Assembly (NCBI RefSeq): GCF_007741535.1
Contig: NZ_CP036525.1
Location: 2,666,001-2,730,000 of the forward strand
Origin: Rubripirellula lacrimiformis
Lineage (GTDB): Bacteria > Planctomycetota > Planctomycetia > Pirellulales > Pirellulaceae
Length of the DNA: 64,000 nt
Reading direction: 5' to 3'
The translations under genes were made by a program, and so were the position numbers. Below the pieces are notes generated by a model, which was not told the DNA's origin, ran no database searches, and worked only from the letters and a program-made list of their open reading frames with translations. Below, in pieces: positions 8,355 to 60,360 of this stretch (its first letter is position 1; each line of letters begins with the position of its first letter).

Positions 8355-8612
8355 GGTGTCCCGTGTGGAGTGAGAGAAGAGATAAGGCACTCGACACTTT
8401 TGAATTACCGAACTGACCGGGCCGGACGCCAGAGCGAAAATGTTGACACCGACTATTGAACGGACCGAGAAGTTTGAGATTGGTATTGCGTTTGGAACCG
8501 AGAGCGGCCCGGATCCCGGGTCCGCGATTCACATTCGGTGAACGAGGAAGGATGGGATAGCGGATTTCTTGGTCCCGCATACTTCTATTTCGTCGGCCTT
8601 TCGGCCCCTGCT

Positions 8613-10643
8613 CGTTTCACCGCGTGCCCGTCGGGCCGCGCGTTTTGGGTGCGTGGACGCACGGGGCGTTGCCCACGCGGTGAAACGATTTAGCGCACGA
8701 GTCGCATGCGCGGTGCCTGATTGCTCCCGCTCGTTTAACCGCGTGCCCGTCGAGCCGCGCGTTTTGGGTGCGTGGACGCACGGGGCGTTGCCCACGCGGT
8801 GAAACGATTTTGGGCACGGATCGCATGCGCGGTACGTGACTGCCCCTATCGTTTAACCGCGTGCCCATCGGGCCGCGCGTTTGGGTACGTGGACGCACGG
8901 GGCGTTGCCCTCGCGGTTAAACGATCCAGCGCACGGATCGCATGCACGGTACGTGACCGCCCCTATCGTTTAACCGCGTGCCCATCGGGCCGCGCGTTTT
9001 GGGTGCGTGGACGCACGGGGCGTTGCCCACGCGGTGAAACGATTTTGGGCACGGATCGTATGCGCGGTACGTGACCGCCCCTGTTCGTTTAACCGCGTGC
9101 CCAGCGGGCCGCGCGTTTTGGGTGCGTGGACGCACGGGGCGTTGCCCACGCGGTGAAACGATTTTGCGCACGGATCGTGTGCGCGGTACGTGACCTCCCC
9201 TGCTCGTTTAACCGCGTGCCCATCGGGCCGCGCGTTTTGGGTGCGTGGACGCACGGGGCGTTGCCCACGCGGCCAAACGATCCAGCGCACGGATCGTGTG
9301 CGCGGTACGTGACCGCCCCTATCGTTTCACCGCGTGCCCATCGGGCCGCGCGTTTGGGTACTTGGACGCACGGGGCGTTGCCCACGCGGTTAAACGATCC
9401 AGCGCACGAGTCGCATGTTCGGTGCGTGACGGCCCCTGTCGTTTAACCGCGTGCCCAGCGGGCCGCGCGTTTTGGGCGCGTGGACGCACGGGGCGTTGCC
9501 CACGCGGTGAAACGATTTTGGGCACGGATCGCATGCGCGGTACGTGACTGCCCCTATCGTTTAACCGCGTGCCCATCGGGCCGCGCGTTTTGGGTGCGTG
9601 GACGCACGGGGCGTTGCCCACGCGGTTAAACGATGCAGCGCACGGATCGCATGCGCGGTGCGTGACGGCCCCTATCGTTTCACCGCGTGCCCGTCGGGCC
9701 GCGCGTTTTGGGTGCGTGGACGCACGGGGCGTTGCCCACGCGGTGAAACGATCCAGCGCACGAGTCGTATGCGCGGTACGTGACCGCCCCAGTCGTTTCA
9801 CCGCGTGCCCGTCGGGCCGCGCGTTTTGGGTGCGTGGACGCACGGGGCGTTGCCCACGCGGTTAAACGATCCAGCGCACGAGTCGCATGTTCGGTGCGTG
9901 ATTGCTCCCGCTCGTTTCACCGCGTGCCCGTCGAGCCGCGCGTTTTGGGTGCGTGGACGCACGGGGCGTTGCCCACGCGGTTAAACGATACAGCGCACGG
10001 ATCGCATGTTCGGTGCCTGATTGCTCCTGCTCGTTTAACCGCGTGCCCATCGGGCCGCGCGTTTTGGGTGCGTGGACGCACGGGGCGTTGCCCACGCGGT
10101 TAAACGATCCAGCGCACGGATCGTATGTTCGGTGCCTGATTGCTCCTGCTCGTTTCACCGCGTGCCCATCGGGCCGCGCGTTTTGGGTGCGTGGACGCAC
10201 GGGGCGTTGCCCACGTGGTTAAACGATTTTGGGCACGGATCGCATGTTCGGTGCGTGATTGCTCCCGCTCGTTTCACCGTGTGCCCGTCGGGCCGCGCGT
10301 TTGGGTGCGTGGACGCACGGGGCGTTGCCCACGCGGTTAAACGATACAGCGCACGGATCGCATGTTCGGTGCCAGATTGCTCCTGCTCGTTTAACCGCGT
10401 GCCCATCGGGCCGCGCGTATGGGTACGTGGACGCACGGGGCGTTGCCCACGCGGTGAAACGATCCAGCGCACGAGTCGCATGTTCGGTACGAGACCGCCC
10501 CAGTCGTTTCACCGCGTGCCCGTCGAGCCGCGCGTTTTGGGTGCGTGGACGCACGGGGCGTTGCCCACGCGGTGAAACGATCCAGCGCACGAGTCGCATG
10601 CGCGGTGCATGACGGCCCCAGTCGTTTCACCGCGTGCCCATCG
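8613..10643 (+). repeat. Tandem array of ~118-bp cloverleaf-forming units, left part (units 1-17 and start of 18)
   Basis: Seventeen complete units and the first 21 bases of an eighteenth are seen, counted by the shared core GGACGCACGGGGCGTTGCCC at about 8655, 8774, 8891, 9009, 9128, 9247, 9364, 9482, 9600, 9718, 9837, 9956, 10075, 10194, 10312, 10431 and 10550. The period is 117-119 bp. Each unit has a 75-base block: outer arms CGTTTAACCGCGTG and CACGCGGTTAAACG, enclosing three small inverted repeats (GCCC-ATC-GGGC, GTGCG-TGGA-CGCAC and GGGC-GTT-GCCC). A linker of about 43 bases contains a further weak GCGCAC/GTGCG pairing. Outer arms occur in TTAA and TTCA forms. Long reading frames here arise from repetition and are not counted as genes. 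Confidence 0.95.
10639..10643. repeat. Target-site duplication, left copy (CATCG)
   Basis: CATCG flanks the left end of the IS, and the same five bases follow its right end at 12218-12222. Removing the element and one copy restores the array sequence GTGCCCATCGGGCCGCG exactly, as found in the other units. A 3-4 bp duplication with slightly longer element ends cannot be excluded, because the terminal bases overlap this word. Confidence 0.75.
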
Positions 10644-10702
10644 AGGCTGTGAATAATTGAGTTTTGGCTTGTTGGATTTCTACATGGGGCTAAATTATTT
10701 GC

Positions 10703-12031
10703 ATGAAAATTCCAACCGATGCTCAGCAGCGTGGTTCCGCTCGCACCCACCGCCCCGAACGCAGCCAAGTTGAGATGCGGTTCTATTCGCTCGACCAGAT
10801 GGTGGCCCGCGAGCACCGCGTTCGTTTGGTATGGCAGTACTGCGAATCGCTCGACCTCGGACCGCTTTACGAGAAGATCAAATCGAAAGTAGATGGTCGT
10901 GGTCGTACCCCGATCGATCCGCGAATCCTCTTCGCCCTGTGGTTCTACGCAACGCTCGAAGGGATCAGTAGCGCCCGCCGTTTGAGCGATTTGACCACCC
11001 GCGACTTCCACTACCTGTGGATCTGCGGCGATGTCACGGTTAATCATCACACCCTGAGCGACTTTCGCAGCGGCAACGCCGAGTATCTCGAGAAGTTGCT
11101 TAGCGACTCGATCGCCGTGCTGCTGAGCGAAAAACTGATCACGTTGGATACCATCGGGCAGGATGGCATGCGGGTGCGTGCCTCGGCCGGCAGCAGTTCG
11201 TTTCGGTCCGAATCGACGCTCCAACAGATGCAAGAGGTTGCCGAAGACTATGTAAAGGAACTCGCCGAGCGATCCGACGAGGAAGCTGCCGCGGCAACTC
11301 GGGCCGAACAGGCCGCCCGTAAGCGTGCTGCCGACGAACGACTCGAGCGTATCAAGGCGGCTCAAGAGAACCTCAAAGAACTTGAGCGACGTCGTAAAGA
11401 GAAACGATCACGCAAAAGCAAGTCGACCCCACGAGCCTCCACAACGGACCCCGAAGCGGCGCGGATGAAGATGGGAGACGGCGGTTTTCGCCCCGCCTAT
11501 AACGTCCAATTCGCCAGCGACGGCGACTCTCGAATTGTCGTCGGCGTGAGCGTTGACAATCAGGGCAGCGATCAAGGTGAGATGCTTCCGATGTACGAGT
11601 CGATCTGCCGCACCTATGGGGTGACGCCGGCACACTACTTGGTCGACGGCGGGTTCACCAAAGCGAGCGATATCGAAGCGATGGACGCTGCGGGGACGGA
11701 GGTTTACGGTCCACTGAAGGACATCAAAAGACAAGTCGCTAACGGCAAGGATCCCCATGCGAGCAAGCCGGGCGATAGCGACGCGATGGCGAGGTATCGA
11801 AAGAGGATGGGGACACCCGAGGCGCAGGAGATGTTGAGACGACGTCCATCGATAGCTGAATTTCCCAACGCGGAATGTCGTAATCGCGGTCTTCATCAGT
11901 TCCGGGTTCGTGGCCAGAAGAAAGCAATGGCCCAAACGCTTTGGCACGTGCTGGTGAACAACTTCAATCGATTGAACAACCTAGGATTTTTACAAACACT
12001 GATGAGGCAATCCTGTACTGCGACGCCTTGA
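10703..12031 (+). CDS. IS1182-family transposase (DDE)
   Basis: The 442-residue protein starts at the ATG at 10703, 59 bases inside the left end. The N-terminal 100 residues (FYSLDQMVAREHRVRLVW ... DPRILFALWFYATLEGISSARRL) are the InsH/DUF772-type domain typical of IS1182 and IS5-like elements. Candidate catalytic acids are Asp in TIGQDGMRVRAS, Asp in LVDGGFTKASDIE and Glu in IAEFPNAECRNRGL. A charged, Ala/Glu/Arg-rich coiled-coil insertion at about residues 165-245 lies between the first two motifs, as often seen in this family. No frameshift is present, so the enzyme looks functional. Confidence 0.92.
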   Translation: MKIPTDAQQRGSARTHRPERSQVEMRFYSLDQMVAREHRVRLVWQYCESLDLGPLYEKIKSKVDGRGRTPIDPRILFALWFYATLEGISSARRLSDLTTRDFHYLWICGDVTVNHHTLSDFRSGNAEYLEKLLSDSIAVLLSEKLITLDTIGQDGMRVRASAGSSSFRSESTLQQMQEVAEDYVKELAERSDEEAAAATRAEQAARKRAADERLERIKAAQENLKELERRRKEKRSRKSKSTPRASTTDPEAARMKMGDGGFRPAYNVQFASDGDSRIVVGVSVDNQGSDQGEMLPMYESICRTYGVTPAHYLVDGGFTKASDIEAMDAAGTEVYGPLKDIKRQVANGKDPHASKPGDSDAMARYRKRMGTPEAQEMLRRRPSIAEFPNAECRNRGLHQFRVRGQKKAMAQTLWHVLVNNFNRLNNLGFLQTLMRQSCTATP

Positions 12032-12052
12032 GGTTGGCCTCCGGCCTCCAAT

Positions 12053-12075
12053 CGTTGGACGCATCGCGTCCAACG
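12053..12075 (+). terminator. Hairpin downstream of the transposase gene
   Basis: A perfect 10-bp stem (CGTTGGACGC / GCGTCCAACG) with a 3-base loop ATC lies 21 bases after the transposase stop and inside the IS. No T-tract follows directly, so it could end transcription only weakly. It may instead insulate the element or act in transposition. Confidence 0.45.
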
Positions 12076-12217
12076 AAGCTTCAAAGCGATCCACCAAGAC
12101 AAAAGAACCACCGAAGCTTCAACCTGAAACTTTGACGACGACCGGCAATCCAAAATTTTTGAAAAACCACTTCAAAAACACGGCGTCAAGCCACAACCGG
12201 CCAATTATTCACAGTCT

Positions 12218-12222
12218 CATCG
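12218..12222. repeat. Target-site duplication, right copy (CATCG)
   Basis: This is the second copy of the five bases found at 10639-10643, directly after the right terminal repeat of the IS. Confidence 0.75.
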
Positions 12223-12412
12223 GGCCGCGCGTTTTGGGTGCGTGGACGCACGGGGTGTTGCCCACGCGGTTAAACGATTTTGGGCACGAGTCGGATGCGC
12301 GGTGCATGACGGCCCCTATCGTTTAACCGCGTGCCCATCGGGCCGCGCGTTTTGGGTGTGTGGACGCACGGGGCGTTGCCCACGCGGTTAAACGATCCAG
12401 CGCACGAGTCGC
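12218..12412 (+). repeat. Tandem array, right part (rest of unit 18 and unit 19)
   Basis: The sequence resumes with CATCGGGCCGCGCG, exactly where unit 18 was broken, then completes that unit and one more (19). The core word occurs near 12243 (one variant base, GGGGTG) and 12362. The array ends in the unit-19 linker, after which the sequence becomes unique. With both parts joined, the original array was about 2.24 kb, or 19 units. Confidence 0.93.
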
Positions 12413-43976: not shown

Positions 43977-44665
43977 CGGATTTCGTGAGCCGCGATGCGT
44001 GAGAAAACGTCCGGCTTACGGCAGCCTCGGAGAGGCGAGAGCATGCTGCGGTGTGGGCGAGCCCCACGGATTCAGCGTTACCACCGCCCCCTCACCCCAA
44101 CCCTCTCCCCCTGGATAATCGAAGCTCCACTTCGATCATCCAGGGGGAGAGGGGGCAAAAAAACAACCAACCGCAGTGTCGCCCCACCTCTTTTTTTCCC
44201 CTCTCATTTCGCCCCCTCACCCCATCCCTCTCCCCCTGGATCATCGAAGCTGCACTTCGATGATCCAGGGGGAGAGGGGGCAAAAAAACCAACCGCAGTG
44301 TCGTCCCACCTCATTTTTCCCCCTCTCATTTCGCCCCCTCACCCCATCCCTCTCCCCCTGGATCATCGAAGCTCCACTTCGAATATCCAGGGGGAGAGGG
44401 GGCAAAAAAACAACCGCAGTGTCGCCCCACCTCTTTTTTTCCCCTCTCATTTTGCCCCCTCTCCCCCGCGTTGAACGCGAGTTCCGCTCGCGTTCAACGT
44501 GGGGGAGAGGGTTGGGGTGAGGGGGCCCGACCTTCGCCGCTCCGCGACCTTCGCCGGACGTTGTCGTGAGCGGTCGGGAATCCCGCGTTGCGCTGTTGCC
44601 CGTGGCATCAAGGCCAGCGGCTCACCATTGCCGTTGGATGTTCGACCAAATCAACAGAACACTAG
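43977..44665 (+). repeat. Composite hairpin element, copy A (expanded)
   Basis: The left part is CGTCCGGCTTACGGCAGCCT then a GTGTGGGCGAGCCCCAC stem and CACGGATTCAGCGTTACCAC. Three tandem units of about 120 bp follow, each CCCTCTCCCCCTGGAT-type left arm, a short loop, and a right arm ending CCAGGGGGAGAGGG. A fourth hairpin has GCGTTGAACGCGAG/CTCGCGTTCAACG arms. The right part is GGCCAGCGGCTCACCATTGCC with ATTCAACGG-type flank. The same order occurs inverted at 53985-54440. Reading frames here have no protein support. Confidence 0.88.
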
Positions 44666-58423: not shown

Positions 58424-58520
58424 CGATCTTTCAACGTGTAAACGGTCGATTGTCTGGCGTCGGCTTGTCTGACGAACGGATGGACCCGTACAGACTCTGT
58501 TTCGGCTATTCACACCCCAG

Positions 58521-58568
58521 CCGCACAGGGAAATCGCCGCACAGGGAAATCGCCGCACAGGGAAATCG
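58521..58568. repeat. Three perfect 16-bp direct repeats
   Basis: CCGCACAGGGAAATCG occurs three times head to tail at 58521-58536, 58537-58552 and 58553-58568, about 98-145 bases upstream of the DUF1552 start. The spacing is not whole helical turns (16 bp), so sites would rotate around the helix. A partial fourth (GCGGCGGGCAAACG) is unconvincing. They could be regulator sites or a replication slippage product. Confidence 0.7.
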
Positions 58569-58819
58569 TCGCGGCGGGCAAACGTGGTCGCAGTGGAAGG
58601 CGGGGGTGAGGCGGGATTTGCCAGTCGATTTCGGAAACAACCGGACACAAGCATTCTACCAGTCCGGGGGGCTGCCGCAACAGAGTTTTTGGTAGGCGTG
58701 CTACGCCGCTCACGAAAGCTCGGACGCAACGCCTCGCACCGCCATACTGCGGCGGATTGGCCGCAATGTCCGCTTTTGGGGTGCTCGACACCGTACGTCC
58801 CGGTGGGATTTATCGGGGC

Positions 58820-59863: not shown

Positions 59864-60360
59864 CGTGGTTCCTTTGGGGGGGACTAAGTGGGTTTCAGTC
59901 GACGTGGCCTTCGATCACTGAAGCAGCGAAGTGAATGAGCGGACGATGAAGCGATCATCGATACGGAAGTGCCCATGAAGACGTTGGCCCGGTGAGGTGC
60001 CGTGCCGTGAGGTGCCGTGAGGTGCCGTGCCGTGCCGTGACACTTCGTGACCAAACCGAAGTGCTGATCCGAGTGGACGACACACCACGCTACCTCAATG
60101 CCGTCGGCGTGGTTCCGCCCGCCAAAAATTGTCAGTTTTTGTTTCGATTCGCTTGGTGGGGAGCGAATTCTGGCGAATCTCGCTGCGTGCAGTCACGCCA
60201 CTTTTCGATCGCGAGTGAACCGACCGGCGCTGACGTGCGTGCTGATCGTCGGAACGCTACACCACGCGTTCGGGTTGAATTTCCACGGTCGACCGGAGGC
60301 ACTTCCCCGCAACAATGCTCTCGATCGACCAGGATGTTTCGACAGCGGTCTCCGGATCGA
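59864..60360. other. Spacer with short tandem repeat
   Basis: Between the DJ-1 gene and the lyase end. At 59991-60040 GTGCC and GTGAG words repeat (GGTGCCGTGCCGTGAGGTGCC and onward). The right half (60291-60360) is the lyase 3' flank shared with the relic. Frames here show no support. Confidence 0.5.

Follow-up and report, generated by a model that had tools for sequence, protein, structure and literature searches.

Dozens of tandem arrays of a probably mobile, REP-type DNA element, and a candidate RAYT-like transposase, in the planctomycete Rubripirellula lacrimiformis

We analyzed a 64,000-nucleotide (nt) window of the Rubripirellula lacrimiformis genome (contig NZ_CP036525.1, positions 2,666,001 to 2,730,000, forward strand), near the start of which lies a tandem array of short units that an earlier note had described as cloverleaf-forming DNA of unknown function. 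We found that this array is one of dozens in this genome that are built from a small, probably mobile DNA of the repetitive extragenic palindrome (REP) type, so the earlier description was too open, and the unit can be placed among REP/REPIN-type repeats. We consider it very probable that they represent mobile DNA of the REP type that belongs to a planctomycete branch of REP-associated tyrosine transposases (RAYTs) with an unusual tag and that tandem duplication has expanded them into arrays. Judged by sequence, they are the likely substrate of a RAYT-kind HUH/Y1 transposase, which is encoded by a single-copy gene inside one of the arrays.

The array is one of many in the genome

The array contains 19 head-to-tail units at 8613-12394 (numbered from the first base of the window), 18 with intact cores of 74 to 75 nt and one with a split core, as seen by BLAST and pattern scan, in agreement with the unit count of the earlier note. 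Tandem Repeats Finder (TRF) called the array at 8604-10643, with a period of 118, 17.2 copies, and 90% matches, and unit periods within its first block (Table 1) are 117 to 120 bp. In the whole 8.54-Mb genome (G000), a BLAST search with the core gave 494 matches, counting partial ones and those on either strand, and one 18-nt core segment had 249 exact copies, compared to 0 for the pattern read backwards. Pattern extraction from 37 fetched loci gave 297 sequences, with 266 well-formed units in 35 loci passing the filter; array counts for this genome are lower bounds, with at least 266 well-formed units in total and up to 21 intact units in the largest arrays.

A core of ~75 nt is common to all arrays, while the spacer and the middle loop are mostly array specific. 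In the 26 printed loci of this genome (one of which has a single intact unit), spacers are homologous within each array, and each array keeps one orientation throughout. By eye, spacers are also related between some arrays (L024/L025, L018/L022, and the window array/L009). The earlier note's statement that the array is not a CRISPR holds, as there are no unique spacers. Periods in other arrays range from 94 to 137 bp, so that no reading frame is kept, and the arrays are intergenic by crude open reading frame (ORF) calls. The unit is thus what is expected of a REP, a small palindrome that is extragenic and present in high copy number. A search of a plasmid collection gave no match to the element.

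A RAYT-like gene lies inside one array

We also found, inside one array of this genome and with units on both sides, a gene for a 204-amino-acid (aa) HUH/Y1 protein (5,222,195-5,222,806). The gene is single copy in G000, and a 72%-identical gene in another genus (genome G232) is also embedded between units, so that both genes are flanked by inverted REPs, as expected for RAYTs. The route to these genes was a pair of Y1_Tnp profile matches below the cutoff. The best NCBIfam match of the protein is the REP-associated tyrosine transposase family (REP_Tyr_transpos, NF047646; E value, 4e-12), and residues H102, H104, Y172, N176, and P177 are invariant across 26 homologues. The protein has the HUH motif and a catalytic tyrosine in the arrangement Y---NP, the class 2 signature (PMC6006769). 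A profile search of the PDB at E values up to 1 returned seven sequences, all named transposase or TnpArep, among them 2ec2 (7.8e-5), 2xm3 (5.2e-4), and 4er8 (“TnpArep,” 1.1e-3). On sequence, then, the 204-aa protein resembles RAYT/TnpA_REP transposases.

Tagged repeats accompany homologous transposases

Relatives of this protein are encoded in 396 of 415 candidate stretches from GTDB r220, and the best 80 of the 396 were kept as loci for tag analysis; by title, 79 are from planctomycetes of various groups and one is from a member of the Vicinamibacteraceae. With no motif preset, the top 7-mers within 250 bp of the gene were TCGTTTA, in 40 of the 80 loci (1 in the control), and GTTTAAC, in 38 (1 in the control), and GTTTAGC was found in 30 loci compared to 2 in the control; both windows of this distant control were full for 56 of the 80 loci and partial for the others. 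The combined motif GTTTARC, chosen after we had seen this result, occurs within 250 bp of the homologue in 61 of the 75 loci that were eligible, 57 of which have it on both sides, compared to 3 of 49 loci, and none on both sides, in windows ~2 kb away (5 and 31 loci with short flanks, respectively, were dropped). In 29 of the 75 loci, a tag and then its inverse occur on one side or both. A hairpin of at least 3 bp comes after the tag in 216 of 235 cases, compared to 147 in shuffles (maximum, 164); across families, stems of differing sequence follow the same tag, and only short stems exceed shuffles. Inspection of 30 printed loci showed that the tag can also be GTTTAGC or GTTAGC, with the canonical GTAGC in 2 of the 30 (L178 and L179). 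Tag type follows the transposase tree, with 13 changes on a tree of 82 rows compared to a shuffled mean of 36.5 and with 0 of 200 shuffles as low.

Distribution among genomes and changes in unit number

At the DNA level, the element was matched in 6 of 60 genomes, G000 included, and among 21 same-genus genomes there were matches in G021 (36) and G011 (1) and none in the other 19. Of 396 genomes of the order, six carry the exact arm pattern (G000, G021, G027, G232, G320, and G369), with a control of 0 in all; among these six carriers, the transposase gene was detected at an E value of 1e-5 in G000 and G232 only. An array confined to this strain would have counted against the earlier note's reading, but the element occurs in other genera, and many planctomycetes have comparable tagged repeats next to their homologous transposases. 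When dispersal was scored as 10 or more copies per genome of the pattern GTTTAAC-N4-AGCC-NNN-GGCG, 16 of 65 transposase-positive genomes reached this threshold compared to 10 of 331 negative genomes (Fisher P = 7e-8).

The sister species G027 and G232 differ in unit number at 7 of 9 orthologous sites (1/4, 3/5, 2/8, 2/4, 6/8, 2/1, and 4/1 units, with agreement at 1/1 and 3/3). Units were counted by pattern with up to 2 substitutions per arm, leaving out one pattern match in L074 that is not the element and one L089 unit ~3 kb off, and for L072 the count is limited to the element on the right flank that the two genomes share. At the transposase locus, G232 has nine intact units and the gene, while the orthologous G027 site is one element (L104 versus L139); the break falls within the element, which is what would be expected from an exchange between units. 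G027 still has many copies elsewhere.

Unit numbers that differ between constant flanks, and repeats that persist in G027 without the gene, could also come from a pure slippage satellite, in which an inert palindrome is amplified locally and the link to a transposase is accidental. Slippage cannot, however, account for a single core at dozens of sites that differ in their surroundings, and it leaves unexplained both the enrichment of the tag beside the transposase family and its match with the tree, which makes such an origin highly improbable.

Unit anatomy and predicted folding

The outer arms are as the earlier note described them, and its sequence makes the unit more aptly described as a pair of inverted modules of ~31 nt (CGTTTAACCGCG-hairpin-CGCGCG) that flank a loop. 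Each module consists of the tag GTTTAAC and a small hairpin, so that the unit has the anatomy of a REPIN, with two inverted REPs and a loop between. The drawn unit (Table 1) is a four-way junction with zero unpaired junction bases, and the C-A mismatch in its middle stem is found in the window's units. Hairpin A in the window is GCCC-NNC-GGGC, with the loops ATC, GTC, or AGC that had been noted earlier; its stem is GCCC/GGGC in 15 of the 18 intact units and GCCC/GAGC in 3.

In DNA folding, unit 9557-9632 formed a junction at -25.6 kcal/mol (z = -2.5), and its minimum free energy structure has the outer stem and hairpins A and B as drawn and a different middle part. Unit 8966-9041 (z = -1.5) also formed a junction with a middle part unlike the drawn one, and unit 9913-9987 (z = -2.4) took another fold with no such junction. 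The folding proposed in the earlier note is thus reasonable for single units, with a junction in two of three window units and another fold in the third, but modest (z scores of -1.5 to -2.5). The reverse strand of unit 9557-9632 gave a different fold (z = -3.6), and a G232 unit gave a z of -3.3. The G021 elements that we read are longer, near-perfect palindromes in which hairpin A is GGGC-ATC-GCCC; one of these was folded (z = -11.7).

For covariation, 375 units were kept and 56 were dropped, giving 245 distinct rows. The outer stem has 15 double changes compared to 14.6 expected by independence and the middle stem has 4 compared to 4.5, while hairpin A has 6 compared to 0.6 and hairpin B has 2 compared to 0.2. 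Covariation inside the element family is therefore weak, and we dropped it as structural proof for the outer and middle stems; the structure-level selection suggested earlier is likewise weak, with double changes in excess in the two hairpins and not in the two longer stems.

We considered whether the units are a transcribed structured RNA or a bidirectional terminator, with arrays as multiples of an RNA element. Several units do fold better than shuffles, and half of the loci lie between convergent ORFs (among 26 loci, 13 convergent, 10 codirectional, and 3 divergent by crude longest-ORF calls), but there were 0 Rfam matches at the gathering score in the window, the outer stem lacks covariation, copy number and spacers vary, and the tag follows a DNA transposase. 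We judge this explanation to be very unlikely.

Hairpin-forming sites are also known from integrons, whose attC sites have the end motifs RYYYAAC and GTTRRRY. The unit ends fit both motifs, the units fold as hairpins, and G000 encodes an integron integrase at 2,970,738 (TIGR02249; 393.7 bits, cutoff of 265), with a second at 192,198, as might be expected if the units were attC sites and the arrays remnants of a cassette platform. However, the ~92-bp repeats beside the first integrase, which lie with small ORFs, are unrelated in sequence and hundreds of bases apart, the 20-kb stretch around this integrase holds no copy of the element, and the units have short, geneless spacers, are found at dozens of sites, and go together with another enzyme. 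We rejected identity with attC, as the units are not the same sites as the cassette array of the resident integron, and an integron origin is extremely improbable. An attC scan found no match even at the integron; it was too strict and was not used as evidence. Separately, the region L272:4300-11746 (G000 2,964,299-2,971,745) is by appearance a resident integron, with the integrase, several small ORFs on the opposite strand, and the ~92-bp repeats between them.

Orientation of arrays along the chromosome

With an origin presumed near base 1 and scoring by genome half, most arrays share one direction with respect to that origin: 29 of 38 in G000 (P = 0.0017), the genome that prompted the idea, and 22 of 25 in G027 (P = 0.00016). 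G232 shows no such trend (11/24). Up to 3 Mb, the GC skew of G000 is mostly positive, and beyond 4.1 Mb it is mostly negative, in line with the presumed origin. In none of the three genomes does array orientation agree significantly with local GC skew (G000, 23/38; G027, 15/25; G232, 12/24), and we regard orientation by genome half as suggestive only.

Together with the frequent position between convergent ORFs, this pattern would be expected of arrays recruited as chromosome-organizing or replication-directed sites, like FtsK-orienting polar sequences (KOPS) or gyrase-binding BIME-2 (bacterial interspersed mosaic elements), and kept for that role whatever their origin. Single-strand transposition at replication forks also predicts an orientation bias, however, and with 19 of the 21 same-genus genomes lacking a match and one having a single match, the element is dispensable. 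Recruitment of this kind is unlikely. Two genes of G000 have DnaA domains over the Pfam cutoff (4,392,821 and 112-576); the stronger, a 681-aa frame, lies near mid-genome, away from the skew-inferred origin.

Insertion sequences in the arrays

The earlier note had treated 8613 to 12412 as a continuous array, but an IS1182-family insertion sequence (IS) with a CATCG duplication splits unit 18 (Table 1). In five arrays picked because of an IS-sized gap (the window array, L013, L020, L022, and L030), the point of insertion is the hairpin A loop in 5 of 5 cases, each with a 5-bp target duplication and an element length of 1574 to 1576 bp; the family assignment was made for the window copy. ISs that target REPs likewise insert into the hairpin of the repeat (PMC1525189), and IS1272 is likewise found at the hairpin of a repeat (PMC5678879). 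IS1272 is reported there to replace the stem-loop with no duplication, in contrast to the IS1182-family insertions here, which have the duplication in all five arrays.

TABLE 1 Features of the array and of a representative unit
Feature	Position in window	Strand	Remarks
First block of array: 17 intact units and left piece of unit 18	8613..10643	+	TRF, BLAST, pattern scan
Cores 1-6	8613-8687, 8732-8806, 8850-8923, 8967-9041, 9086-9160, 9205-9279	+	
Cores 7-12	9323-9396, 9440-9514, 9558-9632, 9676-9750, 9794-9868, 9913-9987	+	
Cores 13-17	10032-10106, 10151-10225, 10270-10343, 10388-10461, 10505-10579	+	
Unit 18, left piece of split core	10623-10643	+	Pattern scan
IS1182-family insertion sequence, 1574 bp	10644..12217	+	In hairpin A loop of unit 18; target duplication CATCG
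IS1182 transposase, 442 aa	10703..12031	+	NF033551, 312.7 bits, cutoff 270
Unit 18, right piece of split core	12218..12276	+	Starts with duplicated CATCG
Unit 19, last of the array	12320..12394	+	Pattern scan
Representative unit	9558..9632	+	From sequence; partition as in covariation count
Outer stem of representative unit, 13 bp	9558-9570 / 9620-9632	+	
Hairpin A of representative unit	9571-9581	+	GCCC-ATC-GGGC
Middle stem of representative unit, 7 positions	9582-9588 / 9602-9608	+	One C-A mismatch; loop 9589-9601
Hairpin B of representative unit	9609-9619	+	GGGC-GTT-GCCC
X module (half-element)	9558..9588	+	Tag CGTTTAAC, outer arm, hairpin A, CGCGCGT
Y module (half-element), inverted	9602..9632	-	Tag CGTTTAAC on minus strand, hairpin B

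The window also contains a second palindromic tandem repeat at 44085-44466 (3.1 copies with a period of 122; arms CCCCCTGGATCATCGAAG...), to which the genome has 108 matches when partial hits and hits on either strand are counted, and short tandem repeats at 58520-58572 (16 bp, 3.3 copies) and 59992-60040 (units of 5 to 15 bp, 3.3 to 8.6 copies).

DISCUSSION

The units share with the REP/RAYT “REPtrons” (Nunvar 2010, PMC2817692; Quentin 2018, PMC6006769) short, tagged palindromic repeats in high copy number, a low-copy HUH/Y1 gene with Y-x-x-x-NP that is flanked by inverted copies, and transposase clades that each have their own repeat sequences. Like REPINs (Bertels and Rainey 2011, PMC3116915), they consist of two inverted REPs and a loop as one unit; in contrast to REPINs as described there, their arms and hairpins can close into a four-way junction, and they form arrays with as many as 21 intact units. 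As in BIME-2 and REP clusters (PMC2817692, PMC3733652), doublets of REPs are repeated in tandem, and REP clusters are reported to be repeated together with pieces of the DNA beside them (PMC3733652), but the arrays of G000 each keep a single orientation and occupy dozens of sites in one genome. GTAG-tagged REPs have been reported predominantly from gammaproteobacteria, and R. baltica has been named among species with several REP families (Di Nocera 2013, PMC3733652). RAYT class 3 is reported mainly from Planctomycetes, Acidobacteria, and Proteobacteria, with a Y----Q motif and a CnGA foot (PMC6006769), whereas the protein described here has Y-x-x-x-NP and the tag differs from that foot. A literature search, for which most subscription papers were outside reach, found no description of GTTTAAC-tagged REPs.

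Several results weigh against assigning the units to a RAYT branch. The tag, GTTTAAC or GTTTAGC, is not the canonical GT[AG]G (or CGTC) of REPs. NF047646, though the best match of both proteins, scores 46.1 and 42.0 bits, below the curated 80-bit cutoff, and the Pfam Y1_Tnp score of 21.6 bits does not reach the cutoff of 23. Among the 80 homologous loci, 17 are without GTTTARC, and hairpins of at least 4 bp after the tag show no excess over shuffles (56 compared to 54.5). The transposase was not detected at an E value of 1e-5 in four of the six exact-arm carriers (G021, G027, G320, and G369), and at least 10 tagged repeats are present in each of 10 genomes that lack it; moreover, the dispersal pattern fits other branches and not the window's element, with 0 copies in G000. 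The G027/G232 loci that were compared include no empty site and differ only in unit number, so that de novo transposition was not seen, and the outer stem, as noted above, does not covary.

By analogy with studied RAYT/IS200 enzymes, we infer cutting, transposition, and dependence on forks as follows. The unit would be a REPIN-like doublet that, as a single strand, can close into a four-way “cloverleaf.” At replication forks, the transposase would recognize the tag and hairpin in single-stranded DNA and cut them, and it would have spread copies through the genome. At many sites, tandem duplication of a copy along with ~20 to 60 bp of adjacent DNA, through slippage or unequal exchange, would then have produced head-to-tail arrays. 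The spacers do match within an array and for the most part differ from one array to another, and unit numbers do differ between sister species. Among the roles listed in the earlier note, the one supported is thus a non-autonomous mobile element expanded by slippage, to which a candidate transposase and a family can now be added. As for a benefit to the host, our default reading is a persistent, mostly neutral genomic repeat.

The same observations could instead reflect an old, separate planctomycete RAYT class with a GTTTARC guide and junction-forming REPINs, in which the enzyme itself makes the arrays by copy-out of single-stranded circles at forks, and the arrays are kept as replication-oriented chromosome landmarks. 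Copy-out at forks would predict the orientation by genome half, but we hold this version to be quite unlikely.

If the units are REP-type DNA of a planctomycete RAYT branch, as we consider very probable, this branch would account for repeats in many planctomycete genomes. With its own tag, with tags that track the enzyme tree, and with large arrays at dozens of sites in a single genome, it would offer a natural series for following how HUH enzymes and their repeats change together, and comparing sister species that have or lack the gene could show whether REP populations depend on RAYTs for their maintenance.

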